A DNA stretch of 64,000 bases from Nitrospira sp. Its GTDB lineage: Bacteria > Nitrospirota > Nitrospiria > Nitrospirales > Nitrospiraceae. The first letter of the stretch is position 1, and every line of letters starts with the position of its first letter. Both the position numbers and the translations under genes were made by a program. The notes beneath the pieces were generated by a model. It made no database searches. It was not told where the DNA came from and saw only the letters and a program-made list of their open reading frames with translations. The DNA is taken from NCBI GenBank assembly GCA_024331125.1, contig JANDJI010000001.1, positions 94,001 to 158,000 on the forward strand. Direction: 5' to 3'. Of this stretch, positions 33,063 through 48,040 are shown piece by piece.

Positions 33063-33395
33063 TCAGTCGTTCAGCTTTTTATCGATCTTGTCGCCGGCTT
33101 TTTTGAAACCTTGGGCCGTTTTATCGGCGGCTTTTTTTAACTTCCGTTCGACCTTTTCTCCGACCTTCTTTTCTTTCAATTTTCTGCCGGCCTTGGTAAA
33201 GCCCTGTTCGATCTTGTCGCCGACTTTTTTGGCGGTATTGCCGATCCGTTCCAGCACCCCCGGACTCTTGTCCGCCTGGTCTTGGGCCGATGCAGAAGGA
33301 ACCGCGACTGTTCCACCCAGCCAGAAAGAAACCATCAGCCCAAGAATCAAAAACGATCGCGATGATCGCATCATGTTTTGGAGGCGGCTCGCCAT
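33063..33395 (-). CDS. Small exported Lys-rich helical protein
   Basis: This 110-residue protein has a signal peptide ending in ASAQD, followed by a Lys-rich amphipathic region. That region has repeated 10-12 residue units (KKVGDKIEQGFTKAGRKL, KKAADKTAQGFKKAGDKI), likely a coiled or membrane-surface helix. I chose the ATG at 33395 with AAAAGG upstream; internal ATGs at 33374 and 33371 also fit a signal peptide. No family recognised. It is divergent from the halogenase-like gene at 33535. Confidence 0.6.
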   Translation of the reverse strand: MASRLQNMMRSSRSFLILGLMVSFWLGGTVAVPSASAQDQADKSPGVLERIGNTAKKVGDKIEQGFTKAGRKLKEKKVGEKVERKLKKAADKTAQGFKKAGDKIDKKLND

Positions 33396-33486
33396 GGCAA
33401 TCGAAATGCCTTTTGTCAAGCATAGCACGAACCGGCGGAATCTCCTCAAGGAGGAAGGGGAGCCGGACAAAGAATCTCATCGGCAC

Positions 33487-33534: not shown

Positions 33535-34896
33535 ATGGAATCCATGGCCGCTACAGCCATTCAACAAAATCACGACCGAACCAGATGCGACGTGCTGGTC
33601 GTGGGGGGCGGCCCCGCCGGAGCGGCCGTTTCCACTTTGCTCGCGGGAAAGGGCTGGAACGTCCACGTCCTGGAAAAAGACCGCCATCCGCGCTTCCACA
33701 TCGGCGAATCGTTGCTTCCACATTCGCTCCCGATGCTCGAACGGCTGGGCGTGCTGTCCGAAATCGAAAAAATCGGCATCCTCAAGTACGGAGCCGAGAT
33801 CGTCTCTCCCTACCACGGCCGATCCCGCATTCTGTACTTCTCCAAGGCGCTCGACGGCTCGCAACCGTTTGCTTATCAAGTCAAACGGGCGGAATTCGAC
33901 AAGATCTTGATCGACAACGCCGTGGCCAAAGGAGTCCATCTCCATGAAGGGGTCCGAGCCAAGCACGTGGAGTTTCGTCCCGGCTCGACGCACTTGGTTC
34001 AGGCCGACGATCAAACCGGACGATCGCTGACGTACGAAGCCGATTTCGTGATCGACGCCAGCGGCCGCGACACCTTCCTCTCCGCTCAGCTCGGCGGCAA
34101 ATCTCGCAACCCCCATCACAACAGTGCCGCGATCTTCGGCCATTTTGAAGGGGTCCGACGGCTGCCGGGGCGGGACGAGGGCAACATCAGCATCGTGTGG
34201 TTCGACCACGGCTGGTGGTGGATCATTCCATTTAAGGACGGCACGACCAGCGTCGGCGCCGTGTGCTGGCCTTCCTACATCAGCACGAGAAAGGTCCCGT
34301 TGGAACAATTCCTGTGGGACACGATCGCCCTTTGCCGACCGGTGGCCGAACGGATGGCGAACGCGAAATTACTGGGACAGGCCTATGCCGCCGCCAACTA
34401 TTCCTACCGGCGAACGACCATGAGAGGCGACGGCTATCTGATGGTGGGCGACGCCTTCGCCTTCATCGATCCCGTGTTTTCCAGCGGCGTCCACCTGGCG
34501 CTCAACAGCGCCACGCTGGGAGCCGAGGTCGTGGATGCCTACTTGCGGAAGTCTCCCGACTATCCGCATCGCGTGAAAGAGTTCGAGCGGCTCGTCCGCC
34601 TCGGCGTCAACACGTATTCTTGGTTCATTTATCACTTCACCCAACCGGCCTTCCGCGCTTTGTTCATGTCGGAAGGGTCGGTCTTCAAGATGGAAGAGGC
34701 CGTGCTCTCGATCCTGGCGGGCGATGCCTTCGGAAAGTCGCCGACCCAAATTCCCCTGTTCCTGTTCAAAATGGCCTATTATTTAATTTACCTGTTCAAC
34801 TTCAGGGACAATCAAGCCGCATACCGACGACGAATCCGGGGCGTGCCGGAAACAGTCACCGCGCTGAAGGACTATGCCGTTCCGCCGCCCTCATAA
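33535..34896 (+). CDS. Flavin-dependent halogenase-like FAD oxidoreductase
   Basis: This is a 453-residue FAD protein of the PheA/TetA-type fold. GGGPAG (24-29) binds the ADP moiety, GESLLP (57-62) follows, and DASGRD lies at 174-179. Two halogenase marks are kept: a Lys at the expected active position (K84, ILKYGAEI) and WxWxIP as WWWIIP (227-232). Related proteins occur in xanthomonadin and flexirubin clusters, whose products can be brominated or chlorinated. It could halogenate the aryl head group, or act as a reductase/hydroxylase. No dedicated flavin reductase gene is adjacent. The next gene, 21 bases downstream, is the chorismatase. Confidence 0.82.
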   Translation: MESMAATAIQQNHDRTRCDVLVVGGGPAGAAVSTLLAGKGWNVHVLEKDRHPRFHIGESLLPHSLPMLERLGVLSEIEKIGILKYGAEIVSPYHGRSRILYFSKALDGSQPFAYQVKRAEFDKILIDNAVAKGVHLHEGVRAKHVEFRPGSTHLVQADDQTGRSLTYEADFVIDASGRDTFLSAQLGGKSRNPHHNSAAIFGHFEGVRRLPGRDEGNISIVWFDHGWWWIIPFKDGTTSVGAVCWPSYISTRKVPLEQFLWDTIALCRPVAERMANAKLLGQAYAAANYSYRRTTMRGDGYLMVGDAFAFIDPVFSSGVHLALNSATLGAEVVDAYLRKSPDYPHRVKEFERLVRLGVNTYSWFIYHFTQPAFRALFMSEGSVFKMEEAVLSILAGDAFGKSPTQIPLFLFKMAYYLIYLFNFRDNQAAYRRRIRGVPETVTALKDYAVPPPS

Positions 34897-34917: not shown

Positions 34918-35964
34918 ATGACATCGGCATCGACGCGCCGAGCGCCCTCCGTCGCCCGTGGCACGCCGCGGACACCGTCTCATTTACACGTCTCATACAT
35001 CGAACCACGCACATTGCAGACCCTGCTTGATTCGGCGACGCCGGAACTGATGGCGGTCGTTTCTTTCGGGCAACCCCTGCCTTACGACGTCTCCTGCCCC
35101 GTCATGGCTCCCGATCTTCCTCAGATTGCCGGCTCCCCGTTGATTGAAGTTTGGACGTCGGCCCGTCCGGTTCACACCGCGACCGACGGAAGACTCTCCA
35201 CGGCCATGAACGGGGAGTGGCTCATCGGTGCCTTCAGCTTGGATGAGCCGCCGGATCAGCCGTTGGACGCGCTGACCTATGACGCGTATCGAGCCATCCT
35301 GCGCCGTCTCAATGATTCCGGCTATCCGCACCTGTGCCGCATTTGGAACTACTTCCCCCGCATCAATGACGACCAAGACGGACTGGAGCGGTACCGGCGG
35401 TTCTGTGTGGGCCGGCACCAGGCGCTGGCGGAATCGCTGCCCGGCTTCCCCTGCTCCCTGCCTGCCGCCACGGCGGTCGGGACACAATCCGGTCCGCTCC
35501 AGATCATGTTTCTCGCAAGCACCGAACCGGGCGATCATCTCGGCAACCCAAGACAGATGAACGCGTACGAGTACCCCGCGGAGTACGGCCCGCGCAGCCC
35601 CTCGTTCGCGCGGGCGACCTTGTTTCGATCGGATCAAGACAATGTCTTATTCATTGCCGGCACGGCCAGCGTGGTCGGACATGCCAGTCGGCACATCGGC
35701 CGACCGGCCGACCAGACGCGCGAGTCGATTTGCAATATCCTGACCGTTCTCGAACGGGCCGGGGCGATCGGCAACACCGATTTTCTGGATAAAGCAAGCC
35801 TCGCGATGTACAAAGCCTATGTGCGGGACACCGGCTCGCTCTCTGAAATTCGCGGCGCGCTTCAGCGATCGCCCCTGTCCTCACGGCCTCTTTTGTTTCT
35901 GCAGGGCGACCTGTGCCGAAAAGAATTGCTCGTTGAAATCGAGGGCCTGATCTTTTCCGAGTAG
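34918..35964 (+). CDS. xanB2: Chorismatase of the FkbO/Hyg5/XanB2 family
   Basis: This 348-residue protein shows the chorismatase signatures in order: RIWNYFPRIN (141-150), GRHQAL (166-171), NAYEYPAEYGPRSPSFARA (215-233), IAGTASVVGHAS (246-257) and LQGDLCRKELLVEIEG (328-343). The family hydrolyses or eliminates pyruvate from chorismate. XanB2 members give 3- and 4-hydroxybenzoate, the starter for xanthomonadin; FkbO members give a dihydroxycyclohexadiene carboxylate. Context with ACP, AMP ligase and KS genes favours the XanB2 type. GAGG precedes the ATG. The first 20 residues are polar and extra. Confidence 0.87.
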   Translation: MTSASTRRAPSVARGTPRTPSHLHVSYIEPRTLQTLLDSATPELMAVVSFGQPLPYDVSCPVMAPDLPQIAGSPLIEVWTSARPVHTATDGRLSTAMNGEWLIGAFSLDEPPDQPLDALTYDAYRAILRRLNDSGYPHLCRIWNYFPRINDDQDGLERYRRFCVGRHQALAESLPGFPCSLPAATAVGTQSGPLQIMFLASTEPGDHLGNPRQMNAYEYPAEYGPRSPSFARATLFRSDQDNVLFIAGTASVVGHASRHIGRPADQTRESICNILTVLERAGAIGNTDFLDKASLAMYKAYVRDTGSLSEIRGALQRSPLSSRPLLFLQGDLCRKELLVEIEGLIFSE

Positions 35965-35973
35965 TCACGCACC

Positions 35974-36900
35974 ATGGAATCCGGTTCCTTCCGACGCATC
36001 GGGCAAGAAACCCACGAAACCGCCGAACGGCGATTTCACTTCACGATCGACTGTGATTGGGTGCCCGGCTCGCAAGCCGGTCTGGAACGACTGTTAACCC
36101 TTTGCAACAAGCACCGGATCACGGGGACGATCTTTTTTGCCGGCCGCTTCGCCGAAGCATCGCCGGACTTGGTCCGGGATTGTCATCGGCGCGGGCATGA
36201 ACTGGGCACTCACGGCTGGGCCCACGGCAGCTTGGAAGAGGATGAAGATTTCCGGCTGGCGAGCTACGAGCAACAACGGGAGTGGATCCGGCTCGCGACC
36301 GACGCCGTCGAAAGCGCGTCCGGCGTCCGTCCGGTCGTCTTCAGGGCGCCCAATCTCCGCATCGGCGAAGCGACCTTTCGGGCCTTGGCCGACGAAGGGT
36401 ATCGATTCGATTCCTCCGTCCCCGCCAGGCGTTTCGACATGGGATTCGGACGAGTGCACTATACCGACTACTTTTGGGCTCCGCTCTCGCCATATCGCCC
36501 TTCTGATCGAGATCTGGGCAAACGGGGTCAACACGCCATCGTGGAGATTCCTCCCTCGGCCTGCCTGTTCCCCATCAATCTCGCCGCCCTGAGGGTGCTG
36601 GGGCTCCCGACGCTCATGTCCATGATCCATTGGATCTGCCGGCGGTCGCCTCACCTGGTGTTCTACTGTCATCCGTTTGAAGTACTCCACGCCAAGGACC
36701 AGCGATTCCCCCCAAACATGTCTAAATGGAATCAACGGGGCATGAGCCCGGCCAATCTCTCTCTCGTGGACACCTTCATCGAGTCGGTGCTCGACCTCGG
36801 CTATGTCTCGGACACGATCTTCAGCGCTATCCCCCGACAAATCGGCTTCCATTGCCCGATCGTACCGGAAGCCGTCGGCTGTCAATCCGATCATGCTTAA
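35974..36900 (+). CDS. Polysaccharide deacetylase (NodB homology domain)
   Basis: This 308-residue protein has NodB motifs. The first Asp pair is in TIDCDW (D26, D28), the metal His pair is in THGWAHG (H80, H84), FRAPNLRIG is motif 3, and YCHPFEV gives the late His. There is no signal peptide, so it may be cytoplasmic or act on a lipid-linked sugar at the inner face. It is 9 bases after the chorismatase gene. A deacetylase in the starter-supply transcript suggests that a glycan or amino-sugar decoration belongs to the pathway, with the GT2 at 37351 as possible partner. Confidence 0.83.
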   Translation: MESGSFRRIGQETHETAERRFHFTIDCDWVPGSQAGLERLLTLCNKHRITGTIFFAGRFAEASPDLVRDCHRRGHELGTHGWAHGSLEEDEDFRLASYEQQREWIRLATDAVESASGVRPVVFRAPNLRIGEATFRALADEGYRFDSSVPARRFDMGFGRVHYTDYFWAPLSPYRPSDRDLGKRGQHAIVEIPPSACLFPINLAALRVLGLPTLMSMIHWICRRSPHLVFYCHPFEVLHAKDQRFPPNMSKWNQRGMSPANLSLVDTFIESVLDLGYVSDTIFSAIPRQIGFHCPIVPEAVGCQSDHA

Positions 36901-36918: not shown

Positions 36919-37329
36919 ATGAAACGGATACGGTCCATCACGGTTTTGCTGTGCGTCATGTGCATCGCGGTCGTCGGTTGCCGCGGCGGAGGGCAAATTT
37001 ATAACGTAAAAGACGCGCCGGTCGCGACCGCCACCGGCAAAGAAGCGACGCTGGATCAGGTCACGAAGGCCATCGTCGAGGCCGGGTCGAGGTTGGGATG
37101 GACCATGGCGGTCGTCAAACCCGGGCAGATCGTCGGCACGCTTCACATCAGAAGTCACACGGCGATCGTCGAAATCCCCTACACGACCAAAACCTACAGC
37201 ATCATCTACAAGGACAGCACGAACTTGAAATACGACGCCGAAAAGCAAACCATTCACGAAAACTATCGCGGATGGATTCAAAACCTCGACAATGCCATCA
37301 AAAGTCGCTTGTCCGGGTTGGGAGTCTGA
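36919..37329 (+). CDS. Small lipoprotein, unrecognised
   Basis: This 136-residue protein has a lipoprotein signal ending VVGC (Cys about 21). The mature part begins Arg/Gly-rich and forms an alpha/beta pattern (LDQVTKAIVEAGSRLGWTMAVVKPGQIVGTLHIRSHTAIVEIPYTTKTYSIIYKDS), resembling a BON/TPM-like surface domain without a clear match. AGGAGG lies before a decoy ATG-AAA-TGA; the true ATG is 5 bases later at 36919. It ends 22 bases before the convergent GT2 gene. Confidence 0.75.
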   Translation: MKRIRSITVLLCVMCIAVVGCRGGGQIYNVKDAPVATATGKEATLDQVTKAIVEAGSRLGWTMAVVKPGQIVGTLHIRSHTAIVEIPYTTKTYSIIYKDSTNLKYDAEKQTIHENYRGWIQNLDNAIKSRLSGLGV

Positions 37330-37350: not shown

Positions 37351-38154
37351 CTACTTCCGCAGCAGCGTGACGGCCATCCGGTCGCCGCAACGACGGCCGG
37401 GCATCGCCCGGCCGAGGCGTCGACGCAATAGGCAATACAATCCCACCGGATACATCCCTCGGCTGACCAGTTTCCATGCCACCATTTTGGTGATTCGCAC
37501 AACGTCCAGCAATGGCCGAAAGTGACTGGGGCTCGACCCCGATCGGCGCCCCACGCCGACGGCCACGTTTTTAATTACCGTCCCTTTCCTGGCGGCTTCG
37601 ATCAGAATCTCACTCTCATAGACGAAGCTTCTGTCACACCCGTGCGGAACCTTCAGGTCCTGGAGCAACGTGGACGGATACAAGCGGAATCCGGACTGGC
37701 TGTCTTCGATCGCTTGTCCCGACGCCCAACCGATCCAAAAGTCGGCGATGCAGTTGGCAAGGTAGCGCCAGAACGACACCCGCCGTTGATCCCGCCGCCG
37801 GGCGCCGATGAGAAAGACGCTCGGATCGTCCTGAGACCGCTCGATGAATGCGGGAATCTCTTCCGGCGCATGTTGCCCGTCCGCATCCAGTGTAATAATC
37901 CCGACCGCCCCTCGGGACAACGCATACTCAAAGCCTCTCGCCAAGCTGCCGGCCTTGCCTCGATTCGCCTCGTTGCGCAGCACCGTGACGTCCAAACCGG
38001 CCAGGGCTTGGTCGGTTCCATCGGACGACGCATCATCCACGACAATCACGTTCGGGCAGCGGCGTCGCGCACGCGCGGCCACATCGCGAACCGTCGCCGC
38101 CTCGTTATAAGCCGGGATGACCACCCAATACGCCTCACGTGCCACCTTCGACAT
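37351..38154 (-). CDS. Family 2 glycosyltransferase of the aryl polyene cluster
   Basis: This 267-residue GT-A enzyme has WVVIPAYNEA, VVDDASSDGT and ITLDADGQH (metal-binding DxD), then DSQSGFRLYP. A C-terminal hydrophobic/Arg-rich part follows. In xanthomonadin and many aryl polyene clusters a GT2 is fused or adjacent to a dehydratase, and it may glycosylate the aryl-polyene lipid. It is the last gene of the minus operon, 3 bases after FabG. A perfect 8-base-arm hairpin within its 3' end (37395-37413) is inside the coding region. Confidence 0.87.
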   Translation of the reverse strand: MSKVAREAYWVVIPAYNEAATVRDVAARARRRCPNVIVVDDASSDGTDQALAGLDVTVLRNEANRGKAGSLARGFEYALSRGAVGIITLDADGQHAPEEIPAFIERSQDDPSVFLIGARRRDQRRVSFWRYLANCIADFWIGWASGQAIEDSQSGFRLYPSTLLQDLKVPHGCDRSFVYESEILIEAARKGTVIKNVAVGVGRRSGSSPSHFRPLLDVVRITKMVAWKLVSRGMYPVGLYCLLRRRLGRAMPGRRCGDRMAVTLLRK

Positions 38155-38157
38155 CCT

Positions 38158-38883
38158 CTATGCCATCCCGCCGTTGATCCCGATCACCTGACCGGTGATG
38201 TACCCCGCTTGATCCGAAACGAGGAATGATACCAGCGCGGCGACTTCCTCCGGCGTGCCCGCCCGTTTCATCGGCACCAGCGCTTCGATCTGTGGCCGGG
38301 TGAACGACGCCTTGACTGAAGGAGACTCAATCAGTCCCGGCGCCACGACATTCACGGTGATCCCCCGAGACGCCACTTCCCTCGCCAACGACTTGCTCGC
38401 GCCGTGCAAACCGGCCTTGGCCGCGGCATAGTTGCTCTGGCCCCGGTTTCCGATCACGGCCGCCACGGACGAGACGGAGACGATCCGCCCCCAGCGAGTC
38501 CCGATCATCGGCAACAACAACGGCTGCGTCACATTGAAGAATCCGTTGAGCGAGAGATCGATCACTCTCGTCCATTGTTCGCCGGTCATCCCGGCCATGG
38601 GCGCGTCGTCGTGCAGTCCGGCATTGTTGACGACGATCTGAATCGGCCCGTCGCGCAACAGCGATTCCAGCGCGCTTCTGGTCGCTTGCGCATTGGTCAC
38701 GTCAAAAGACACGCTCGTGGCCTGTCGGCCCATAGCGAGAATCCTTTGCGCCACCGCCTCGGCCGATTCACGGTTTCGGCATCCGTGCACGATAACGGCA
38801 TGCCCGTCCGCGGCCAGCCGTTCGGCAATGGCTGATCCGAGCGTCCCGCTCGCCCCCGTGATTAACGCACGCGCGCCCATCAT
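38158..38883 (-). CDS. 3-ketoacyl-ACP reductase (FabG-like) of the aryl polyene cluster
   Basis: This 241-residue SDR has TGASGTLGSAIA, NNAG, a catalytic Ser in VSVSSVAA, and YAAAKAG with Tyr and Lys. TGQVIGINGGMA is the classic FabG ending. It would reduce the beta-keto group after each condensation. Two in-frame ATGs (38883, 38880) overlap the hotdog stop (ATGATG/TGA), showing tight coupling. It resembles ApeQ of E. coli in role. Confidence 0.9.
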   Translation of the reverse strand: MMGARALITGASGTLGSAIAERLAADGHAVIVHGCRNRESAEAVAQRILAMGRQATSVSFDVTNAQATRSALESLLRDGPIQIVVNNAGLHDDAPMAGMTGEQWTRVIDLSLNGFFNVTQPLLLPMIGTRWGRIVSVSSVAAVIGNRGQSNYAAAKAGLHGASKSLAREVASRGITVNVVAPGLIESPSVKASFTRPQIEALVPMKRAGTPEEVAALVSFLVSDQAGYITGQVIGINGGMA

Positions 38884-39317
38884 GCCGGTTCCGATTCCAA
38901 GAAAATCGAGAGCCGCCCGCTCAGCACCTTCCGCCCGCCTGACGAAAGAGCGAACCGGTAGAGGCCGCTCCGATCATCTCCGAACAGACGCACCGCGTCG
39001 ATCAAAAGATCTTCAAGACAGTCGTCGAGACGATCCGTTTCGAATATCACATCCCGCAATCCGCCGACGACGCCGATCGACTTGCCTGCCAAGGGCCTTC
39101 CGGCAAGGAGGCCCATATGAACGCCGGCCGTCTGGGCCGCGTATTCCACTCCCACGACCGCGTCAAGCCGTTCGCCGTGCCGCAGGGGATTCGCCGGATC
39201 GCGATGCGATTGCGCCCGGCATCGAATCGTCTCGTGATCCCACCGTTCCACGCAATCCAGCAGACGCATCGCCCCCGCGTGCGGCAGCAATTCGCCCAGT
39301 TCGTCTTTGTTCAGCAT
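38880..39317 (-). CDS. Hotdog-fold 3-hydroxyacyl-ACP dehydratase (ApeP-like)
   Basis: This 145-residue hotdog protein begins LLPHAGAMRLLDCVERWD, the mark of the ApeP/XanJ-like dehydratase group. AAQTAGVHMGLLAG is the central helix. It would dehydrate 3-hydroxyacyl-ACP to the trans-enoyl form that stays in the polyene. Its start lies inside the end of the CLF gene, and its stop overlaps the FabG start. A second dehydratase (45157) of different subtype is in the same operon. Confidence 0.82.
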   Translation of the reverse strand: MLNKDELGELLPHAGAMRLLDCVERWDHETIRCRAQSHRDPANPLRHGERLDAVVGVEYAAQTAGVHMGLLAGRPLAGKSIGVVGGLRDVIFETDRLDDCLEDLLIDAVRLFGDDRSGLYRFALSSGGRKVLSGRLSIFLESEPA

Positions 39318-40135
39318 CGGCAGGGCTCGATGGTCAGTTGAAGCCGTTGGTTCTCAAGCCAAGCAAGCTCGACGGTTCGCGGAGCGGCGGCCGCGACGGC
39401 GCAGAGAAGGGGCAGCGATCGAGCCGCGGGGTTATTCAGCCGAAGCCGCTCCAAGGCGTCATCGGCAAGACGCTCGGCAAGATACTCGGGAAAACACGCG
39501 GATTCGCCGGCGGGAGCCTGTTCCAGCCCCAATCGCAGGATGACCGTCGAGTCGCGGACGGGCGGGCTCAACACGAACGCCGCAGCGAATCCCTCGGTGA
39601 TGGGCCTGGCCTCGTCCAATGGAGCCGGCACGGCCAAATCATAGGTCACCAGCAAGACAGGCCGTTGCTCCTCTCGCACCGTCGCGACCGCTTCCACCAA
39701 CCCCGCGGCGAACGAGTCGTCATAGCACGAAAGCGCGGTCGAGGACTGCCGGCCGGTCGTGGCGATTCCCCAATAGCCGGCGGCCGTATTATGCACGGAT
39801 TGATGAAACAGGGTGGGCGAGACCCGCCGCTCCTCCGTCGCCAACACGCGGCACAGTTGATCGAAGACCAACATCTCCCCCCCGGATGACGCGAAGACAG
39901 TCGGGATGTCGCGAGGGTCCAGCCCCGATTGTTCAATCGCCTCCTGCGCGACCTGGACGGCCCATCGGACGGAGTCGCTGCTGCGGCGCCGCTCGTTCGG
40001 AGGAAGGATCGCCGCCTCCGGAGAAGGAACGGCGGTCGGTTGGTAGGGACGATCACCGGCCAACACCGCGCGGCTTTCTCTCCAGCAAGGCAGGCCGGGC
40101 GCGAGCAGGCCGATACCGTCTATTGCAACGTCCAT
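39311..40135 (-). CDS. Beta-ketoacyl synthase chain-length-factor-like protein
   Basis: This 274-residue KS-like protein is about two thirds the length of a normal KS and matches the ketoacyl-synt_2 group (ApeC type). It has DGIGLLAPGLPCW, FASSGGEML and TLFHQSVHNTAAGYWGIATTG. The normal TACSS nucleophile site is not seen; SCYDDSFAAG lies near it. It probably pairs with the full KS as a chain-length factor. The ATG at 40135 overlaps the KS stop (ATGA); the frame further upstream is not real. Confidence 0.85.
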   Translation of the reverse strand: MDVAIDGIGLLAPGLPCWRESRAVLAGDRPYQPTAVPSPEAAILPPNERRRSSDSVRWAVQVAQEAIEQSGLDPRDIPTVFASSGGEMLVFDQLCRVLATEERRVSPTLFHQSVHNTAAGYWGIATTGRQSSTALSCYDDSFAAGLVEAVATVREEQRPVLLVTYDLAVPAPLDEARPITEGFAAAFVLSPPVRDSTVILRLGLEQAPAGESACFPEYLAERLADDALERLRLNNPAARSLPLLCAVAAAAPRTVELAWLENQRLQLTIEPCRC

Positions 40136-41349
40136 CACAGTTTCCCCAACACCAAGCTGCAATTGTTTCCGCCGAATCCGAAAATGTTGCTCACGACGCA
40201 CGACAGCGCGCCGAACTGATGGTCGCGGATGACCCGACATTGCAAGGCGGGGTCCACCCGCCGACAGTTGAGCGTGCCGGGCATCAGCCCCTTCGTCAGG
40301 CACAGCGCCGAAATGACCGCTTCCGTGACGCCGGCCGCGCCCAAGGTGTGGCCGGTCCACCCTTTGGTCGAGCTGCACGCCGGCCGCGCCCCGAAGACAC
40401 TGTACACGGCCTTGTCCTCCACCTCGTCGTTGACCCTCGTGGCCGTCCCGTGCAAGTTGACGTATTCCACCGCCTCCGGTCGGATGCCCGCGCGCGCCAG
40501 CGAATCCCGGATCGCCCGGACGGCGCCGGCTCCTTCCGGATGGGGATGCGACATATGGTAACCGTCCGTGCTCTCGCCGTAGCCGAGCAGCGCCACCGCC
40601 CCTCGCCCGCCCGCCCGCTCGACCCGCTCCAACAACGCATAGCCTGCGGCTTCGCCCAATGACAGGCCGTCTCGATCTTCATCGCAGGGGCGGCACGGAT
40701 CGGACGACAGCAGTTGCAAGGCGGAAAAACCGTAGAGCGTCGTATGGCAAAGACTGTCGGCTCCGCCCACCACGGCGGCGTCACAGAACCCGGCCCGCAT
40801 CAACCGGGCCGCGCTCGCAAAGACCTTGGCGCTGGATGAACAAGCCGTGGAGACGACCATGGCCGGTCCCTCCAACCCGAGACACGTCCTGACGAAGTGC
40901 CCCAGCGAAAACATATTGTGCGTGTACCGGTATCGGGAGACATACCAGGCGGGAAGCGCCCCCGTGCGAGGATCGCGCGCCCGATAGGCGTGTTCCGTTT
41001 CAAGAATACCGGAGGTGCTGGTGCCCATGACCACGGCAACCCGATGCGCGCCATAGCGCTGCTTGGCCTCGGCCACCGCCACCGTGAATCCATCCTGCTG
41101 GAGACCAAGCCAGGCCAGCCGATTGTTGCGGCAATCGAAGGGCCGCAGGTCATGGTCGAGAGAAAAATCCTCAAGCCCCGCCACCCGCCCGATGTGCGTT
41201 TTCAACGCGACGTCTTCGAAGTCGCACGGCTTGAGCGCCGACCGGCGGGCCAGAATCGCGTCCAACACCGCTCCCGTCCCCCTGCCGTTGGCGGTGACCA
41301 GCGTGTAAGCGGACAAGACGAGCGGCGCCATGGGACCGCTAGGCGACAT
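40135..41349 (-). CDS. Beta-ketoacyl-ACP synthase II-like ketosynthase
   Basis: This 404-residue ketosynthase has the full Cys-His-His triad: C170 in STACSSS, H300 in LHGTAT and H334 in WTGHTLGAAG. It would extend the aryl-primed chain with malonyl-ACP. The start ATG at 41349 lies 11 bases inside the exporter gene. There is only one complete KS in the cluster, so it must do all extension cycles, probably with the adjacent CLF. Confidence 0.92.
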   Translation of the reverse strand: MSPSGPMAPLVLSAYTLVTANGRGTGAVLDAILARRSALKPCDFEDVALKTHIGRVAGLEDFSLDHDLRPFDCRNNRLAWLGLQQDGFTVAVAEAKQRYGAHRVAVVMGTSTSGILETEHAYRARDPRTGALPAWYVSRYRYTHNMFSLGHFVRTCLGLEGPAMVVSTACSSSAKVFASAARLMRAGFCDAAVVGGADSLCHTTLYGFSALQLLSSDPCRPCDEDRDGLSLGEAAGYALLERVERAGGRGAVALLGYGESTDGYHMSHPHPEGAGAVRAIRDSLARAGIRPEAVEYVNLHGTATRVNDEVEDKAVYSVFGARPACSSTKGWTGHTLGAAGVTEAVISALCLTKGLMPGTLNCRRVDPALQCRVIRDHQFGALSCVVSNIFGFGGNNCSLVLGKL

Positions 41350-43660
41350 GATCCTCCTTCCTCGCCGTGACGGCCGAAAAGGCAAGGCAACACAGCGACC
41401 CGCAGGCGGCGGTCATACCGATCGCATGGAGGGCCGGCGTCTTCGAGAAGGCCAGCACGCCGAACACCGCAATAGTGGTCCCGCTGCAGACGAGCAGCCC
41501 GAAGCTCGTTCTCAGCCGCTCTTCCCCCGTGCACTCCGGCCGGTTGAGAAACAGCGCGTAATCCAACCCCAATCCGACCACCAGCAGAAAGGTCGCCACA
41601 TGAAAGAAGGACAGCGACTCTCCGATGCCCCGTAACACCGCCGCCACCACGACAATCGCGCAAAGAATCGGAGTCAACACCCGCGCGACCAGAACGGCCG
41701 ATCGCAATCCGATCCCCAACACGAGCGCGATCGCCGCCACCCCCCATCCCAGCAACTGCACCGTTCGATCACGATAGGCCGTCATGATTCTGTTCGACTC
41801 TTCCTTGAGATCGAGGTACTTGACCGACCTGTCGCCCCATCGCTCGACGGACCCGGCCAACAAGGCGCGGTCCTCGACGCCGGTCAGCGGCACAACGGCC
41901 ATCCATCGCCCTCCTTGCGGGAACAACAGCGACTCCAGCTTGACCCCCAGCATCGTTCCCGCGAACACCTCGGGACCGATTGGTTCGTCGCGTCGAGCCG
42001 CCTCGACCGCTTCCACGAACGGCGCGAACAGGCCGGGCGCGAAGGGCAATCCCTCGAGCGCCGCCTTCAGGTTCCGCTCGAGGGTCTGCCGATCAGGCAA
42101 CGCTTGTTGCCGTTCCGCTTGGGTCCGGCGACTGGGGATGTAGCGGGATACGATGTCGTACCCCGCCAACACGCCCTCCGTCCGCAGATATTCGAGCTTC
42201 ACGGCCACGGTTTCCGCCTTTTGAAGCAGATCCTCGGTCGTCGCCTCTTCAATGACCAACAGATCCCGCACGTCCGGAGCGCCCAGCTCTTTCCGCAATT
42301 GCTGATCGAACTGTTTTTTCTCCTCCGGCAACGGGCTGAGGCGTCCCACGTCCTGCTCCCACATGGGCGTATCAGACCATACCAAGACCGCCGCCGCAAG
42401 GATCAGCGCGACCGCCGCCGATATACGTCCTGTCGGCGGCAGATCGACCCTCGACCATAACCCTGCATGAGCGTCACGTGGAGCGAACCGAGCCCCCACG
42501 CAGACCGGGACAACCCACCTCGTCACCAGGGCTCCGGTCACAAGGCCGACCAGGGCCAACAGTCCCAATTGCGCCAAGGCCGGATAGCCGGCCAGCAACA
42601 GCGACGAAAATCCGATCGCGGTCGTCAGCATGCCCAACCGCATGGTCGGCCAGATCGCCTGCATGGTCGATGACGGGGATTCACGGCCCGTCAGATGGCT
42701 GAACAGATGAATCGGATAGTCGTCCACGACTCCCAACAAGATCACCCCGAACCCCAACGTAATCCCGTGGACGAATCCGAACCATTGGTTGACCGCGATG
42801 ACGCCGGCCATGATCGCGGTGGAAATAGGGATCAACGTCAGCAGCACCAGCGTCAGGGATCGATAGCTGACGAAGAGAAGCACGACGACCAGGCCGGTCG
42901 CGACGGCGGACAGCCGCCATGCTTCGGCCTCGATGGCCCGCTGAGCCTCGACCGCAAAGACGCCGGGGCCGCTCATGCGCAATTGCGCCGCGGAGCCGAT
43001 CTTCTTTGCCGCCTCGCCGAACGACGCTCGGATCGCCCGATGAAGCGATTCCTGCTCGTCCACGTCGAACCCGCTCCCGCGGGCCTCGACGAGCAAGAGA
43101 GCTCGCGCGCGGTCCGGGGACATCCACACTCCCCCGTAGGCCGACGGTCCATTCCCCATGGACCACGATCGCAGAAGATTCCAGGTTTCGCCCGTCGGAT
43201 CGACCGGGATCGACTCCTTCACGACGGCCCCCAGCGGAGAGCGAAGATCATCCAGCCTCCGTTCAAGAGCAGCACGAAGCGCCGATTCGGAAAACGTGTC
43301 CGCCGTCACCGTCGGGCTGAGCAGATAGCGGAATTCGTTCAACAACGCCAGTTCCTTCTTCGAGCGGACCTCCGCGCCGTTGGCGACCATGCCGACGCGT
43401 TCGTCGGCTCGAAGGGACTCCGCCAGCGACCTGCTGAGTCCGGCCAATTCGGCCGGCGACGCACCCTCCACCGCCAGCAAGATGAGCCGGCCCGACAACC
43501 CCTTGCGCGCCTGCGACAATAAGATCCGCTGTGTCTCCGTCGCTCCCTCCGGCAGGAGGTCGCTGAGATCGTTGCGGATGGACAGTTTCTCGGCTCCGTA
43601 CCAGATTCCGCAGAACATGAAGATCAACCAGAAAGCCGGAACCAAGCGACGCGCGCTCAT
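41339..43660 (-). CDS. MMPL/RND-superfamily exporter of the aryl polyene cluster
   Basis: This 773-residue membrane protein has two halves. Each has a first membrane helix, a large periplasmic loop and five further helices (VATGLVVVLLFVSYRSLTLVLLTL, GFGVILLGVVDDYPIHLFSHL; VLGIGLRSAVLVARVLTPI, FLLVVGLGLDYALFLNRPE). The DDYPIH and LDYALF segments are where MMPL proteins keep relay residues. Such exporters are standard in aryl polyene and xanthomonadin clusters. The ATG at 43660 overlaps the LolA-like stop. It probably moves the finished lipid with the LolA-like partner. Confidence 0.9.
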   Translation of the reverse strand: MSARRLVPAFWLIFMFCGIWYGAEKLSIRNDLSDLLPEGATETQRILLSQARKGLSGRLILLAVEGASPAELAGLSRSLAESLRADERVGMVANGAEVRSKKELALLNEFRYLLSPTVTADTFSESALRAALERRLDDLRSPLGAVVKESIPVDPTGETWNLLRSWSMGNGPSAYGGVWMSPDRARALLLVEARGSGFDVDEQESLHRAIRASFGEAAKKIGSAAQLRMSGPGVFAVEAQRAIEAEAWRLSAVATGLVVVLLFVSYRSLTLVLLTLIPISTAIMAGVIAVNQWFGFVHGITLGFGVILLGVVDDYPIHLFSHLTGRESPSSTMQAIWPTMRLGMLTTAIGFSSLLLAGYPALAQLGLLALVGLVTGALVTRWVVPVCVGARFAPRDAHAGLWSRVDLPPTGRISAAVALILAAAVLVWSDTPMWEQDVGRLSPLPEEKKQFDQQLRKELGAPDVRDLLVIEEATTEDLLQKAETVAVKLEYLRTEGVLAGYDIVSRYIPSRRTQAERQQALPDRQTLERNLKAALEGLPFAPGLFAPFVEAVEAARRDEPIGPEVFAGTMLGVKLESLLFPQGGRWMAVVPLTGVEDRALLAGSVERWGDRSVKYLDLKEESNRIMTAYRDRTVQLLGWGVAAIALVLGIGLRSAVLVARVLTPILCAIVVVAAVLRGIGESLSFFHVATFLLVVGLGLDYALFLNRPECTGEERLRTSFGLLVCSGTTIAVFGVLAFSKTPALHAIGMTAACGSLCCLAFSAVTARKEDHVA

Positions 43661-44277
43661 GGTCCCGATCCCGGCGACAACGTCATCACCGACCGGTCGC
43701 CATCCGCGGTCCGGACCGTGATCGCGTTGATGCGGCCCTCCGAGCCGGACAGTTCGATGAAGTCGACCGGCGCGCCTCCGGCCCGATCGCGGGGACGTAC
43801 TCGCAAGATCCACCGGCGCTTCGTTCCCTCAAGAGCCGCGTCGTACTCCCGCGTCAGCCTCGCCGCGTCCCCGTCCAGCACGGCCCGAAACGTGTCGACG
43901 AACCACCGCAAACCGGGATACTCGTCCAGCGAAACGGTTTTCGTCACGTTCCGCCGTTCGCTCTCGATCGTCACGAAGTCGCCGTCGATGATGTACCGCT
44001 CCCGATAGGGCTCCCGCACGTCCTTCTCCAACCTCGACGGAGGAGTGAACCGCAAGACTCCCCGCGTGATCAGCGGTTTCGTCAACAGCGATGAATACGT
44101 GGCTTCCTCAAACGACACGCTGGGCTCCCGTCTCTCTTTCACGGAGGCCGCCACCTGCTCGATGGTCCACACGATCTCCGATCGATCGTCGGCAATCCCC
44201 TGAGCGGCGACGCCGATCACGGTCCAGATGAACGACACCGCCCATGCGGACACCGCCCGACTACCGCTCCGCATCAT
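43657..44277 (-). CDS. LolA-like periplasmic carrier
   Basis: This is a 206-residue protein. A signal peptide follows two in-frame ATGs at 44277 and 44274. The mature part has SFEEATYSSLLTKPLITRGVLRFTPPSRLEKDV, YIIDGDFVTIE and AALEGTKRRWILRVRPRD, as in LolA-related proteins of aryl polyene clusters. It would ferry the polyene lipid to the outer membrane. The start overlaps the acyltransferase 3' end, and the stop overlaps the exporter start. Confidence 0.83.
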   Translation of the reverse strand: MMRSGSRAVSAWAVSFIWTVIGVAAQGIADDRSEIVWTIEQVAASVKERREPSVSFEEATYSSLLTKPLITRGVLRFTPPSRLEKDVREPYRERYIIDGDFVTIESERRNVTKTVSLDEYPGLRWFVDTFRAVLDGDAARLTREYDAALEGTKRRWILRVRPRDRAGGAPVDFIELSGSEGRINAITVRTADGDRSVMTLSPGSGP

Positions 44278-45160
44278 CCCAAAATTCATAAAAATTGAAC
44301 CAGTTGTTCGGCGCGAGGCGGCAAGCCTCCTCCAGGCGCCCGGCGTACCGTTGAATGTCCCGATGCAAGAGGGCTTCCTGTTGATCACGAGATGTGCGCA
44401 CCCCGTCGCTGAACGATTCAAAATGCACGTCGTAGCGGTTCCCTCCCCGGTAGAAGCCGAAAAACAACACCGCCGGCGATCCCATAAGATGGGCCAGGCG
44501 CAACGCCCCCGTCGGAAATCGGGCCTCGCGCCCGAAGAACGTACACCCGATCGTCCGATCTCCTTGGGTCGCGCGATCGCCCATGACCCCGACGATTCCA
44601 CCCCGTTCCAAACATTCCTTGACCTGCAACATCGCTTCCACTCCGCCGGCCTGAATGACCGTATCGGCCACCGTCCTGTTCAACGTCCTCGTCAGACCGC
44701 GCATCAACGGCGCATTCTCCTCGTCCATTAAAACTCGAACGTCAAGGCGCCGCCGGAGCACCCCCACCGCGCGAACCACTTCGAAACTGCCGAGATGAGC
44801 TCCCAACAACAGACAGCCGCGCCCCTTGGCCAATTCATGATCCAACGTCTCCAACCCATAAAACCGGATGTCGAAGAGGTCGAACCGGCATCGGAGAAAA
44901 TACACGCGGTCGAGGATCGTCGCCGCGAAGGCGTAATAGTGGTGCAACAGATCCGACCACCCGGTCGAACGGCCGAGCGCCCGCTCGCGAAACCGGGCGA
45001 TCGCCCGGCGAGCGGCCCGGGACGCCACCAGAAAGTAGACGCAAATCGGATAGAGCAGGATGCGCGCAGCCGGACGACCGAGCGTCAGCGCCGCCCACGT
45101 CATGGCACGAACGCCCGCGCGGCTTCCACGCTCCCGCTGTCGACGCCACGCGAGGCTCAC
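44261..45160 (-). CDS. LpxL/HtrB-like acyltransferase
   Basis: This 299-residue lysophospholipid/lauroyl acyltransferase has the catalytic HLGSFE (H-x4-E) in LLLGAHLGSFEVVRA, GDRATQGDRTIGCTFFG and an N-terminal membrane anchor (ILLYPICVYFLVA). The start is the GTG at 45160, which overlaps the hotdog stop as GTGA; the first ATG would be at 45103. It probably moves the aryl-polyenoyl chain from the ACP to a lipid acceptor. No thioesterase is present. Confidence 0.88.
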   Translation of the reverse strand: MSLAWRRQRERGSRAGVRAMTWAALTLGRPAARILLYPICVYFLVASRAARRAIARFRERALGRSTGWSDLLHHYYAFAATILDRVYFLRCRFDLFDIRFYGLETLDHELAKGRGCLLLGAHLGSFEVVRAVGVLRRRLDVRVLMDEENAPLMRGLTRTLNRTVADTVIQAGGVEAMLQVKECLERGGIVGVMGDRATQGDRTIGCTFFGREARFPTGALRLAHLMGSPAVLFFGFYRGGNRYDVHFESFSDGVRTSRDQQEALLHRDIQRYAGRLEEACRLAPNNWFNFYEFWDDAER

Positions 45161-45528
45161 GCGCGTTCCGCCGGCGACGATTCGGTCGAAAACTCGACGG
45201 CGCCCGACGCCACGATCCGATCGCCCACTCGACACACGAACGCGGCGCGCTCGGGAGCCTTTCCGTCCGATTCAGCCGCCGATTCAGCGGCGGCTTCAGC
45301 GGCCGTTTCGACCGTCACTTCGACGGTGAGGAGTTCGTCCGGCTTGAGCGGAGAGGAAAACTTGACCGCCGGTAGCCCCGCCACGGGCTTCACCTTCCCG
45401 ATGCCGCCTCGTACCGTTTCCAACACCTCGTGAAGCACCAGCACCCCCGGCACAACCGGCCGGCCGGGGAAATGGCCGGCGATCGCCGGATGGTCGGCCC
45501 CGATCGAGACGGTCCGCCTACACGTCAT
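45157..45528 (-). CDS. FabZ-like 3-hydroxyacyl-ACP dehydratase (ApeI-like)
   Basis: This 123-residue hotdog protein has HPAIAGHFPGRPVVPGVLVLHEV with the catalytic His in HFPG. The sequence VEVTVETAAEAAAESAAESDGKAPERAAF holds an Ala/Glu-rich insert of about 18 residues between strands, made of short repeated units in the DNA (45265-45310). It overlaps the AMP ligase gene by 12 bases. It works with the ApeP-like enzyme at 38880. Confidence 0.87.
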   Translation of the reverse strand: MTCRRTVSIGADHPAIAGHFPGRPVVPGVLVLHEVLETVRGGIGKVKPVAGLPAVKFSSPLKPDELLTVEVTVETAAEAAAESAAESDGKAPERAAFVCRVGDRIVASGAVEFSTESSPAERA

Positions 45529-46870
45529 GGCCGTTTTGCTCTTTCCATCGCCGAATCATCTCATCGACAGATTCACGCGGCAGCTTCCCCGTTTCGTTTC
45601 GAGGCAGCCTCGGCACACGGACAAGCGGGCGCGGCAGAAAAACGGGATCGACACGCGCGCGCAACCGACGCAGAATCTCCTCGCTGCTCTTCCCCGGCGC
45701 CACCACGAACGCCATCAATCTGGTCACCAGCCCCGTTTCTTCGTCCGGCAGGACGAAGACTCCGTCGTGCACCCCCTCGATCTCCAATAATTTCGCGTTC
45801 AAATCGCCGATCGACACGCGATGTCCCGCCACGTTCACATGGTCGGCCTTTCGCCCGTGGACGACGAAGGTACCGTCGGAACCGACGGAAAGATGGTCCG
45901 GCACCGGAACCGGATCGGGCAGATACGGCGCCCGCACCGTACAGGAAGTCTCTTCTTGGACCACGCGCACGCCGTCCAGCGGTTTCCATCGGTCGCCCGC
46001 GATCGTGCGTCGTTCGGCGATGCTCCCCGCTTCGGCGAAGCCGAAAATTTCATGCACCGCCGACTGAAATTGCCGCTCGACCCGCCGCGCCAGGTCACGA
46101 GTCAGCGGAGCCGTCGCGGACAACACAAGCCCGCCGGGCGGCGCAAGAACGTTTTCGGCGATACAGGCTCGCAGGTGGAGCGGCGTGGTCACGAGCATCC
46201 ACCGCCCCGGCGCTTCGGTCAACACGTTCTGAATATCGGCGGGGAAGAGGGGACGTCCCGCGTGCATCGCCAGTCCGTGCATAATCGGCAACATCACGGA
46301 AGCTTCCAGCCCGAACATGTGCTGATGCGGCACGGTCGCCACCACCGTCACGCGATCCCTCTCCTTGATGCCGAGCCGCGATCCGGTCGCCCGAGCTACG
46401 GCCGTCAAGGCGCCCCACGTTTTTCGATTCGGCACCGGCTTCCCCGTCGTGCCGGACGTGAACGCCACGGCCACGACCTGGTCCAACGGGATTCGTGGAA
46501 CGACCGCCGGCATCGGCACGGAAGACGGAGCCGGCCGAATGTGTATGGGAATCGACAGCATTTCTTCACGTTGCTCGTCCCGATCGGTCAGCGCGTAACT
46601 GCCGGGAAAGTCGTCGGCTATACGACGGAGGGCATGGGGCGCCCGGCTGTGAGGCAGCAACGTGACTTGGCCGCGGAGGATCGCCGCGGCGAATCCCACC
46701 AGAAATTCATAGCGGCTCGCGGCAAGATTGAGGACCGTGGAACGGTCGGGCAAGGATTCGGCCAGGGAACGCGCATCGGCTAAGAATCGGCCGGCCGTGC
46801 GCGACGCTTCTGGGCCCCATGCCACAACGTCGTCGGAATCATAGGGGCCGAACAACACCGTCTCGTGCAT
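45518..46870 (-). CDS. AMP-dependent acyl-ACP/CoA ligase (XanA2/ApeH-like)
   Basis: This 450-residue ANL enzyme has the P-loop TSGTTGKPVP (138-147), the aromatic site motif IFGFAEAGSIAERRT, DGTFVVHGRKADHVNVAG and the C-terminal catalytic Lys in RNETGKLPRE. It would adenylate hydroxybenzoate and load it on the ACP encoded just upstream (15-base gap). The size is short for the family, as in xanthomonadin clusters. Confidence 0.88.
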   Translation of the reverse strand: MHETVLFGPYDSDDVVAWGPEASRTAGRFLADARSLAESLPDRSTVLNLAASRYEFLVGFAAAILRGQVTLLPHSRAPHALRRIADDFPGSYALTDRDEQREEMLSIPIHIRPAPSSVPMPAVVPRIPLDQVVAVAFTSGTTGKPVPNRKTWGALTAVARATGSRLGIKERDRVTVVATVPHQHMFGLEASVMLPIMHGLAMHAGRPLFPADIQNVLTEAPGRWMLVTTPLHLRACIAENVLAPPGGLVLSATAPLTRDLARRVERQFQSAVHEIFGFAEAGSIAERRTIAGDRWKPLDGVRVVQEETSCTVRAPYLPDPVPVPDHLSVGSDGTFVVHGRKADHVNVAGHRVSIGDLNAKLLEIEGVHDGVFVLPDEETGLVTRLMAFVVAPGKSSEEILRRLRARVDPVFLPRPLVRVPRLPRNETGKLPRESVDEMIRRWKEQNGHDV

Positions 46871-46885: not shown

Positions 46886-47158
46886 TCACTTCGTGCGGTT
46901 TTTCTCGATGGCCTTGGCCAACGCCCGCAGAGACGAAAAGATGGCTTTGATCTCCGGGTCGCTCGACTTGAGCTGATACCCGTATGTTTGCGAAATGGCC
47001 AGCGAGAGCTCAAGCGCGTCGATCGAATCAAGTCCCAACCCCTCGCCGAACAGGGGGGCCTCCGGTTGAATGGACGTCGGATCGATCTTGAGCTTGAGCG
47101 TCCGCACGATCAGCTCGGCAAGGTCTCTCTCGATCGGCGACGAACCGGAATGTTCCAT
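46886..47158 (-). CDS. Acyl carrier protein of the aryl polyene cluster
   Basis: This is a 90-residue ACP with the phosphopantetheine serine S45 in LGLDSIDALEL. The helix II/III pattern (LSLAISQTYGYQLKSSDPEIKAIFSSLRALAKAI) is complete. The ATG at 47158 starts just after the methyltransferase stop. It is the only ACP in the cluster, whereas E. coli aryl polyene clusters have two and Xanthomonas has one. Confidence 0.92.
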   Translation of the reverse strand: MEHSGSSPIERDLAELIVRTLKLKIDPTSIQPEAPLFGEGLGLDSIDALELSLAISQTYGYQLKSSDPEIKAIFSSLRALAKAIEKNRTK

Positions 47159-47160
47159 GC

Positions 47161-47961
47161 CTACACCTGCTCCGCTTCTTTCACCGCCCGATAGTCGTGC
47201 AACAACCCGCCGAACCACTCCTTGACACGACAGTCGCCGAAACCCGATTTCCGCAGTGTCTGGACGATCGTGGGAGGCGGCACACAGTGTTCCGTCGTCT
47301 CCCACCAGTACGCCATCAACCGTTTCAGATCTTGATTGCCGGTCCCTGCGGCAAACGCCGTCCCCAGCACGTCCCTGATATACCATCGCAACAGCCGATA
47401 CAAGACCATGGACCGGGGACGAGAAATCTCCAGCAGCAGAACGATCCCTCCCGGTTTCAGCACGCGCCGATATTCGGCAAAGGCCGCTCTGAGATCCGAT
47501 ACGTGCCGGAGCGCGTACCCCATGCTCAGAAAATCGAAAAACCGGTCGGGAAACGGCAGACGCTCTCCGACCCCTCGCACGAGATTGCGGCACGGCCCCT
47601 TCCGAGCTTCGCGCAGCATGCCGATGCTGGGGTCAAGTCCGACGACCAAGCCGTACGGCCCCACCAACCTCAAAGCGCATTGCGTCACCAACCCGGGTCC
47701 GCAGGCGACGTCCAACACCCGCATGCCCGGTTTCAACCCCGCCAGTTGGAGCGCCTTCTTTCGATACCACAGACCGGATCCGAAACCGGTGGCTTTATCG
47801 ATGTTCCGATAATGAGCGGCGGTCCGATTAAACAGCTCGTTGAGAAACCCCTGTCTGTCCTCGACCCTTTCGTAATATCGCCGCAGCGGCGGATGGGGCG
47901 CGACGGGTCGATCGTCCGAACCCATGTCGCGCTGATTTTCCCGGTCGGCGGATCGAGTCAT
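47161..47961 (-). CDS. UbiE-family SAM-dependent methyltransferase
   Basis: This 266-residue class I methyltransferase has RVLDVACGPG (motif I), VVGLDPS, MGYALRHVSD and VLKPGGIVLLLEI. It could methylate the aryl head group. The start is uncertain: the ATG at 47961 has GGCAGGA upstream, and the ATG at 48039 directly follows the DUF4105 stop. It lies just ahead of the ACP. Confidence 0.87.
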   Translation of the reverse strand: MTRSADRENQRDMGSDDRPVAPHPPLRRYYERVEDRQGFLNELFNRTAAHYRNIDKATGFGSGLWYRKKALQLAGLKPGMRVLDVACGPGLVTQCALRLVGPYGLVVGLDPSIGMLREARKGPCRNLVRGVGERLPFPDRFFDFLSMGYALRHVSDLRAAFAEYRRVLKPGGIVLLLEISRPRSMVLYRLLRWYIRDVLGTAFAAGTGNQDLKRLMAYWWETTEHCVPPPTIVQTLRKSGFGDCRVKEWFGGLLHDYRAVKEAEQV

Positions 47962-48040
47962 ATGAGAAATCCTGCCCCCTGCCTTTCCACTCTTGTAGCA
48001 AGACGTTTCATCGCCGGGCAAGAGCTGGTCTTTTTCCATC

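Follow-up and report, generated by a model that had tools for sequence, protein, structure and literature searches.

A flavoprotein gene in the 64,000-nucleotide stretch of Nitrospira sp. DNA that we analysed (the window) is, judged by its sequence, the Nitrospira orthologue of XanB1 and ArcA and encodes a stand-alone enzyme of the flavin-dependent halogenase (FDH) superfamily. Counterparts of it are known from the pigment clusters of Xanthomonas and Azoarcus. The function that we favour, and to which we give about an even chance, is that of an FDH acting on 3-hydroxybenzoate or on a carrier-bound aryl-polyene, in a step that would be optional, conditional or cryptic. Few bacterial natural products are as widespread as the aryl polyenes, and many aryl-polyene clusters come with a flavoprotein whose halogenase residues are perfectly conserved; the only characterised pigment from a cluster with the XanB1/ArcA type alone is free of halogen.

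The open reading frame at 33535–34896 on the plus strand encodes a real flavoprotein of 453 amino acids, with full-length homologues at 95–64% identity in the nearest loci, which belong to Nitrospira sp. All four marks of the superfamily were found on this strand: the FAD-binding GxGxxG as GGGPAG (residues 24–29; 33604–33621), the catalytic lysine as K84 (codon 33784–33786), WxWxIP as WWWIIP (residues 227–232; 34213–34230) and FxxPxxSxG as FIDPVFSSG (residues 310–318; 34462–34488). The reference lysines are K79 of PrnA and K83 of BrvH; the lysine handles HOX and WxWxIP shields the substrate from hydroxylation (PMC5945002, PMC10696468), and mutation of the lysine in BrvH abolished halogenation (PMC5945002). 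In our alignment, which did not include PrnA, K84 occupied the lysine column common to PltA, Mpy16, ChlB4, CndH, CmlS, FasV (8zop) and SgcC3, and these proteins also kept the WxWxIP and FxxPxxSxG columns. The initial annotation had pointed to K84 and WWWIIP as halogenase marks, and both proved to be strictly conserved in 161 distinct relatives (~42–95% identity). In these relatives K84, W227, W229, I231, P232, F310, S316 and G318 were 100% conserved, K84 being the sole invariant lysine, and the set of lysine and WxWxIP was missing from all 12 paralogues of reductase-like or QhpG-like type in the genus and order.

The Pfam profile Trp_halogenase matched the flavoprotein with 97.6 bits. Among NCBIfam profiles the order was CmlS (NF033113; 188.6 bits, short of the cut-off of 900 for this equivalog), QhpG (153 bits), LodB (114 bits) and the TIGR02032 GG-red-SF profile (112.5 bits). 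A PDB sequence search gave Mpy16, ChlB4 and CndH as the best matches at 1e-51 to 1e-52, and the other solved relatives were FasV (8zop), the uncharacterised 3nix, PltA and CmlS. An AlphaFold2 model (pLDDT 88, pTM 0.88) was also compared with known structures. Its predicted fold matched 3nix, Bmp2, FasV, ChlB4, Mpy16, PltA, CndH, RadH and CmlS at Z 46–36, the ten best entries being nine named halogenases or brominases and 3nix, and 4-hydroxybenzoate hydroxylases and other monooxygenases appeared for this model only from Z 35.7 downward. Foldseek agreed with this ranking. The closest solved structures are mostly carrier-protein-dependent (variant B) halogenases, but they also include FasV and RadH. 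The carrier-protein-dependent enzymes PltA, Mpy16, ChlB4, CndH, CmlS and SgcC3 share the fold and all active-site motifs at 28–38% identity to the window flavoprotein, whereas they fall in other clades and belong to antibiotic pathways; to our knowledge, none of them comes from an aryl-polyene cluster.

A maximum-likelihood tree built from 62 proteins placed the window protein within the XanB1/ArcA-type clade (support 99/97). Outside this clade stood the main reductase clade (99/95), the gene H proteins described below, a second polyene-cluster clade containing 3nix, and the clades of characterised halogenases. The branching order among these groups lacks resolution, and the window protein was not nested in any proven halogenase clade. 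Three proteins in the tree labelled as geranylgeranyl reductases (L012, L013 and L016) are QhpG-like, not reductases, and did not group with the others of that label. These results bear on the possibility that the flavoprotein is a geranylgeranyl-reductase-type enzyme that reduces the polyene. It does match TIGR02032 and shares the fold superfamily, but its 112.5 bits lie under the cut-off of 158.8, the main reductase clade stands apart, and the set of K84 and WxWxIP is missing in nine reductase-like relatives; we consider this possibility very improbable. A tree had been proposed in the initial annotation as the check on this point, and in ours the flavoprotein fell outside the main reductase clade. 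Sequence, tree and predicted fold together argue strongly that it belongs with the FDHs and not with the geranylgeranyl reductases. Because the halogenase residues are invariant and the family, tree and fold place the protein consistently, the marks appear functional rather than fossil, and we conclude from these comparisons that the flavoprotein is maintained as a functioning enzyme of the superfamily.

The window locus is, by its gene content, a complete xanthomonadin/arcuflavin-type aryl-polyene cluster. As had been noted earlier, the flavoprotein gene is next to a chorismatase gene: a gap of 22 bp separates it from a FkbO/Hyg5/XanB2-type chorismatase (34918–35964, +), the presumed source of the hydroxybenzoate starter. 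A co-directional gene for a polysaccharide-deacetylase-family protein follows (35974–36900, +), and arcN of Azoarcus carries the same annotation (PMC3949708). A convergent minus-strand operon then spans 37351 to ~48100. At its near end lies a family-2 glycosyltransferase (37351–38154), and reading inward we found a FabG-type ketoreductase (38158–38883), a putative dehydratase that had no family match here and whose place is conserved in relatives (38880–39317), a chain-length-factor-like ketosynthase (39311–40135, called inside the frame 39311–40378), a beta-ketoacyl-ACP synthase (40135–41385) and an MMPL-family exporter (41339–43813, with the true start probably within the frame). These are followed by a LolA-like carrier in the C-terminal part of the frame 43657–44601, a lipid-A-type acyltransferase (44261–45235), a second putative dehydratase (45157–45528), an ArcT/ApeH-like AMP ligase that may activate the aryl starter (45518–46870), a frame whose last ~85 amino acids are an acyl carrier protein, the putative substrate carrier (46886–47593), and a frame with a UbiE-like methyltransferase in its C-terminal two thirds (47161–48174). 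About 2.5 kb separates the flavoprotein gene from the glycosyltransferase gene, and the earlier description of it as lying away from the main operon has to be corrected: the cluster is a single continuous one, and the gene occupies its convergent end. Two small frames were seen alongside these genes, namely a divergent, lysine-rich frame of 135 amino acids with KKAGDK-like repeats directly upstream of the flavoprotein (33063–33470, −) and a lipoprotein-like frame without family match between the deacetylase and glycosyltransferase genes (36919–37329, +).

Of the 581 relatives that a GTDB scan confirmed for the flavoprotein, the best 80 were analysed for gene neighbourhood. A chorismatase gene lay within 600 bp of the flavoprotein gene in 57 of the 80 loci and farther off in 4; none was seen in 19 loci, some of which are at contig ends. 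In four Azospirillum loci (L053, L058, L060 and L061), no chorismatase was found within 10 kb on either side. In both Nitrospirota and Proteobacteria, the combination of a XanB1-type gene with a XanB2-type chorismatase is a standard part of xanthomonadin-type clusters. Since this XanB1–XanB2 or ArcA–ArcB pair is conserved and the flavoprotein persists elsewhere without a nearby chorismatase, adjacency says little about the substrate. The initial annotation had taken the position of the gene, beside the chorismatase and apart from the operon, to imply action on the starter; the continuous cluster, the generality of the gene pair and the Azospirillum loci rule this argument out.

Two genes resembling halogenases occur in a published pigment cluster of Xanthomonas: H (xanmn_chr15_0075) and XanB1 (xanmn_chr15_0086), the latter being annotated as a 'putative reductase/halogenase' and located beside XanB2 (0087) (PMC3838355). 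According to a second-hand statement in that paper, XanB1 is required for xanthomonadin biosynthesis (PMC3838355). One genome in our set (G552) has the order H, FabG, dehydratase, exporter, acyltransferase, dehydratase, ACP, flavoprotein, chorismatase and AMP ligase, and its flavoprotein is 45% identical to that of the window. We took this genome as Xanthomonas from the published gene order together with a match to the Xanthomonas-family RNA sX13 (141 bits), and a further genome (G694) was likewise taken as Xanthomonas. Because the gene order of G552 equals that of the published Xanthomonas cluster, the window gene corresponds to XanB1: the two belong to an orthologous clade, each directly precedes a chorismatase gene within an aryl-polyene cluster, and both have all halogenase residues. 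Unlike the window genome, Xanthomonadaceae, among them brominated Xanthomonas, have the additional gene H, whose product of 540 amino acids matches the Trp_halogenase Pfam profile and has the lysine, WxWxIP and FxxPxxSxG. The H protein is only 24% identical to the window flavoprotein and sits on a long separate branch, and its gene adjoins the KS, CLF and GT2 genes; membership of the window flavoprotein in the H group was rejected on this identity and on its different clade.

Wang et al. 2013 described a halogenase beside KS/CLF in many clusters and discussed it alongside bromination, found Lysobacter and Xylella to be without it, and saw no bromine pattern in the Lysobacter pigment (PMC3691225). 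From its position we infer that this halogenase is H. In the window genome and in four Azoarcus genomes H was not found, and only the XanB1-type protein answered there. As H occurs in brominated Xanthomonas and is missing in Azoarcus, the pigment of which is not halogenated, H is a better candidate for the Xanthomonas brominase than the XanB1 type. Crediting this bromination to the orthologue of the window gene is therefore doubtful, and the parallel with brominated xanthomonadins drawn in the initial annotation points instead to H. Among 247 genomes that we assigned to Xanthomonadaceae by inference, 95 had both genes, 31 the XanB1 type only and 21 H only, incomplete genomes possibly inflating the latter two counts. 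With the two types told apart, it becomes testable which of them is the xanthomonadin brominase and what role the other has. Two Nitrospirota contigs (L054, 17447–18649; L057, 17402–20362) were seen to carry one or two extra flavoproteins near the XanB1-type gene, and these are 33% identical to Xanthomonas H.

Azoarcus BH72 offers a comparison with a cluster of the XanB1/ArcA type alone. Its arcA ('halogenase') adjoins the XanB2-type arcB, and there is no other halogenase in the cluster; its arcuflavin is a non-brominated methylated aryl-heptaene ester, C41H52O4, and other derivatives were not found (PMC3949708). Likeness of the window protein to BH72 ArcA was read through congeners (strains inferred, except A. 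indigens, L111), in which a XanB1-type protein 50–51% identical to that of the window has all motifs and, as in the window, is paired with ArcB/XanB2 without H. Azoarcus differs from the window in having arcM and arcN at a second locus, whereas the window has one cluster. The presence of an ArcA-type gene in BH72 together with a non-halogenated arcuflavin means that the full set of marks is no guarantee of halogen in the pigment. Halogen on the final pigment through a XanB1/ArcA-type gene is a possibility, and in Azoarcus a doubtful one. When 4-fluoro-3-hydroxybenzoate was fed to Azoarcus, it was incorporated into the pigment (PMC3949708), so such a pathway can accept a halogen on the ring.

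In the simplest reading, the enzyme would put Cl or Br onto the free 3-hydroxybenzoate that the adjacent chorismatase makes, and the halogen would stay on the completed pigment of Nitrospira. The full halogenase marks, the immediate neighbourhood of the chorismatase and the acceptance of fluorinated 3-hydroxybenzoate by the arcuflavin pathway agree with this; however, the chorismatase pair is a general cluster feature that occurs in Azoarcus with its halogen-free pigment, and the Azospirillum-type loci keep the flavoprotein although no chorismatase was found within 10 kb of it. The closest characterised relatives, moreover, mostly act on carrier-bound substrates, which counts against the free acid. 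We regard this reading as unlikely. We know of no halogenated Nitrospira pigment. Head-group halogenation in general, the central proposal of the initial annotation, is plausible for the window flavoprotein from its complete, conserved marks and from halogenases being its nearest structures, but loses the support of the gene position and of the xanthomonadin parallel, and the Azoarcus pigment without halogen speaks against it.

Three readings survive the Azoarcus result: halogenation that is halide-limited or of low flux, cryptic halogenation, and another reaction on a halogenase scaffold. In the last case, a non-halogenating flavoenzyme would contribute a redox reaction or an oxygenation to the assembly of the aryl-polyene, using K84 otherwise and leaving no halogen. 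The halogen-free arcuflavin and the older 'reductase/halogenase' annotation of XanB1 fit this, and a requirement of XanB1 for xanthomonadin, as stated second-hand in PMC3838355, exceeds what would be expected of a tailoring enzyme; QhpG, the second NCBIfam profile, is a dihydroxylase, and the second clade with the same motifs occurs in another polyene-cluster branch. Arcuflavin, however, lacks added oxygen too, the Lysobacter and E. coli clusters yield polyenes without such a gene, and strict conservation of K84 and WxWxIP is to be expected of an enzyme that works through HOX but not of a hydroxylase or reductase, so that we hold a non-halogenating role to be a possible but somewhat unlikely one. 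In the E. coli CFT073 pigment cluster no counterpart of the flavoprotein was found.

For the favoured FDH function, we infer the activity, halide, substrate and timing as follows. FADH2 from a reductase encoded elsewhere would react with O2 to give the C4a-hydroperoxide; WxWxIP would wall off the substrate, so that halide and not the substrate is oxidised, and HOX would meet K84 for directed halogenation of the electron-rich aryl ring. By analogy with the closest characterised relatives, the target would most plausibly be 3-hydroxybenzoate on the acyl carrier protein of the cluster, or the aryl-polyene chain as it grows. Halogenation would probably be optional, halide-dependent or cryptic, and not something that every molecule of the pigment must carry. 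A bolder proposal, which we think rather improbable, is that XanB1/ArcA constitutes a widespread terrestrial and freshwater halogenase family dedicated to cryptic halogenation of a carrier-bound aryl or polyketide intermediate, with the halogen being lost later; if true, it would reconcile the invariant halogenase residues with a non-halogenated pigment. The PF01613 flavin reductase profile had no match in the window's genome, which is 89% complete, whereas 13 of 14 control genomes contained this domain; at that completeness, the missing PF01613 reductase is weak evidence against a halogenase.

Within the genus Nitrospira, 11 of 35 genomes contained the flavoprotein gene. The best 80 of the 581 relatives came from Nitrospirota, Azospirillum, Azoarcus, Acidithiobacillus, Methylococcus, Gallionella, Dechloromonas and others, and in a sample of the class of Azoarcus a copy with at least 43% identity was found in 35 of 369 genomes. 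The second halogenase-like clade (L124, L126, L160, L167 and L171–L177; 29–33% identical, with the lysine and WxWxIP) belongs to another branch of aryl-polyene clusters. Its hosts include Pseudoalteromonas and Acinetobacter, and in annotated records the gene lies between an MMPL exporter and a DUF3261 gene. This clade also includes 3nix, a flavoprotein of Cytophaga hutchinsonii that is the best fold match of the window protein (Z 46.3) and has the lysine, WxWxIP and all motifs, but is 30% identical and groups with the second clade. Some genomes have two XanB1-type genes, either ~8 kb apart, as on a Gallionella contig (L073, at 906 and 9214), or in tandem, as in G588.
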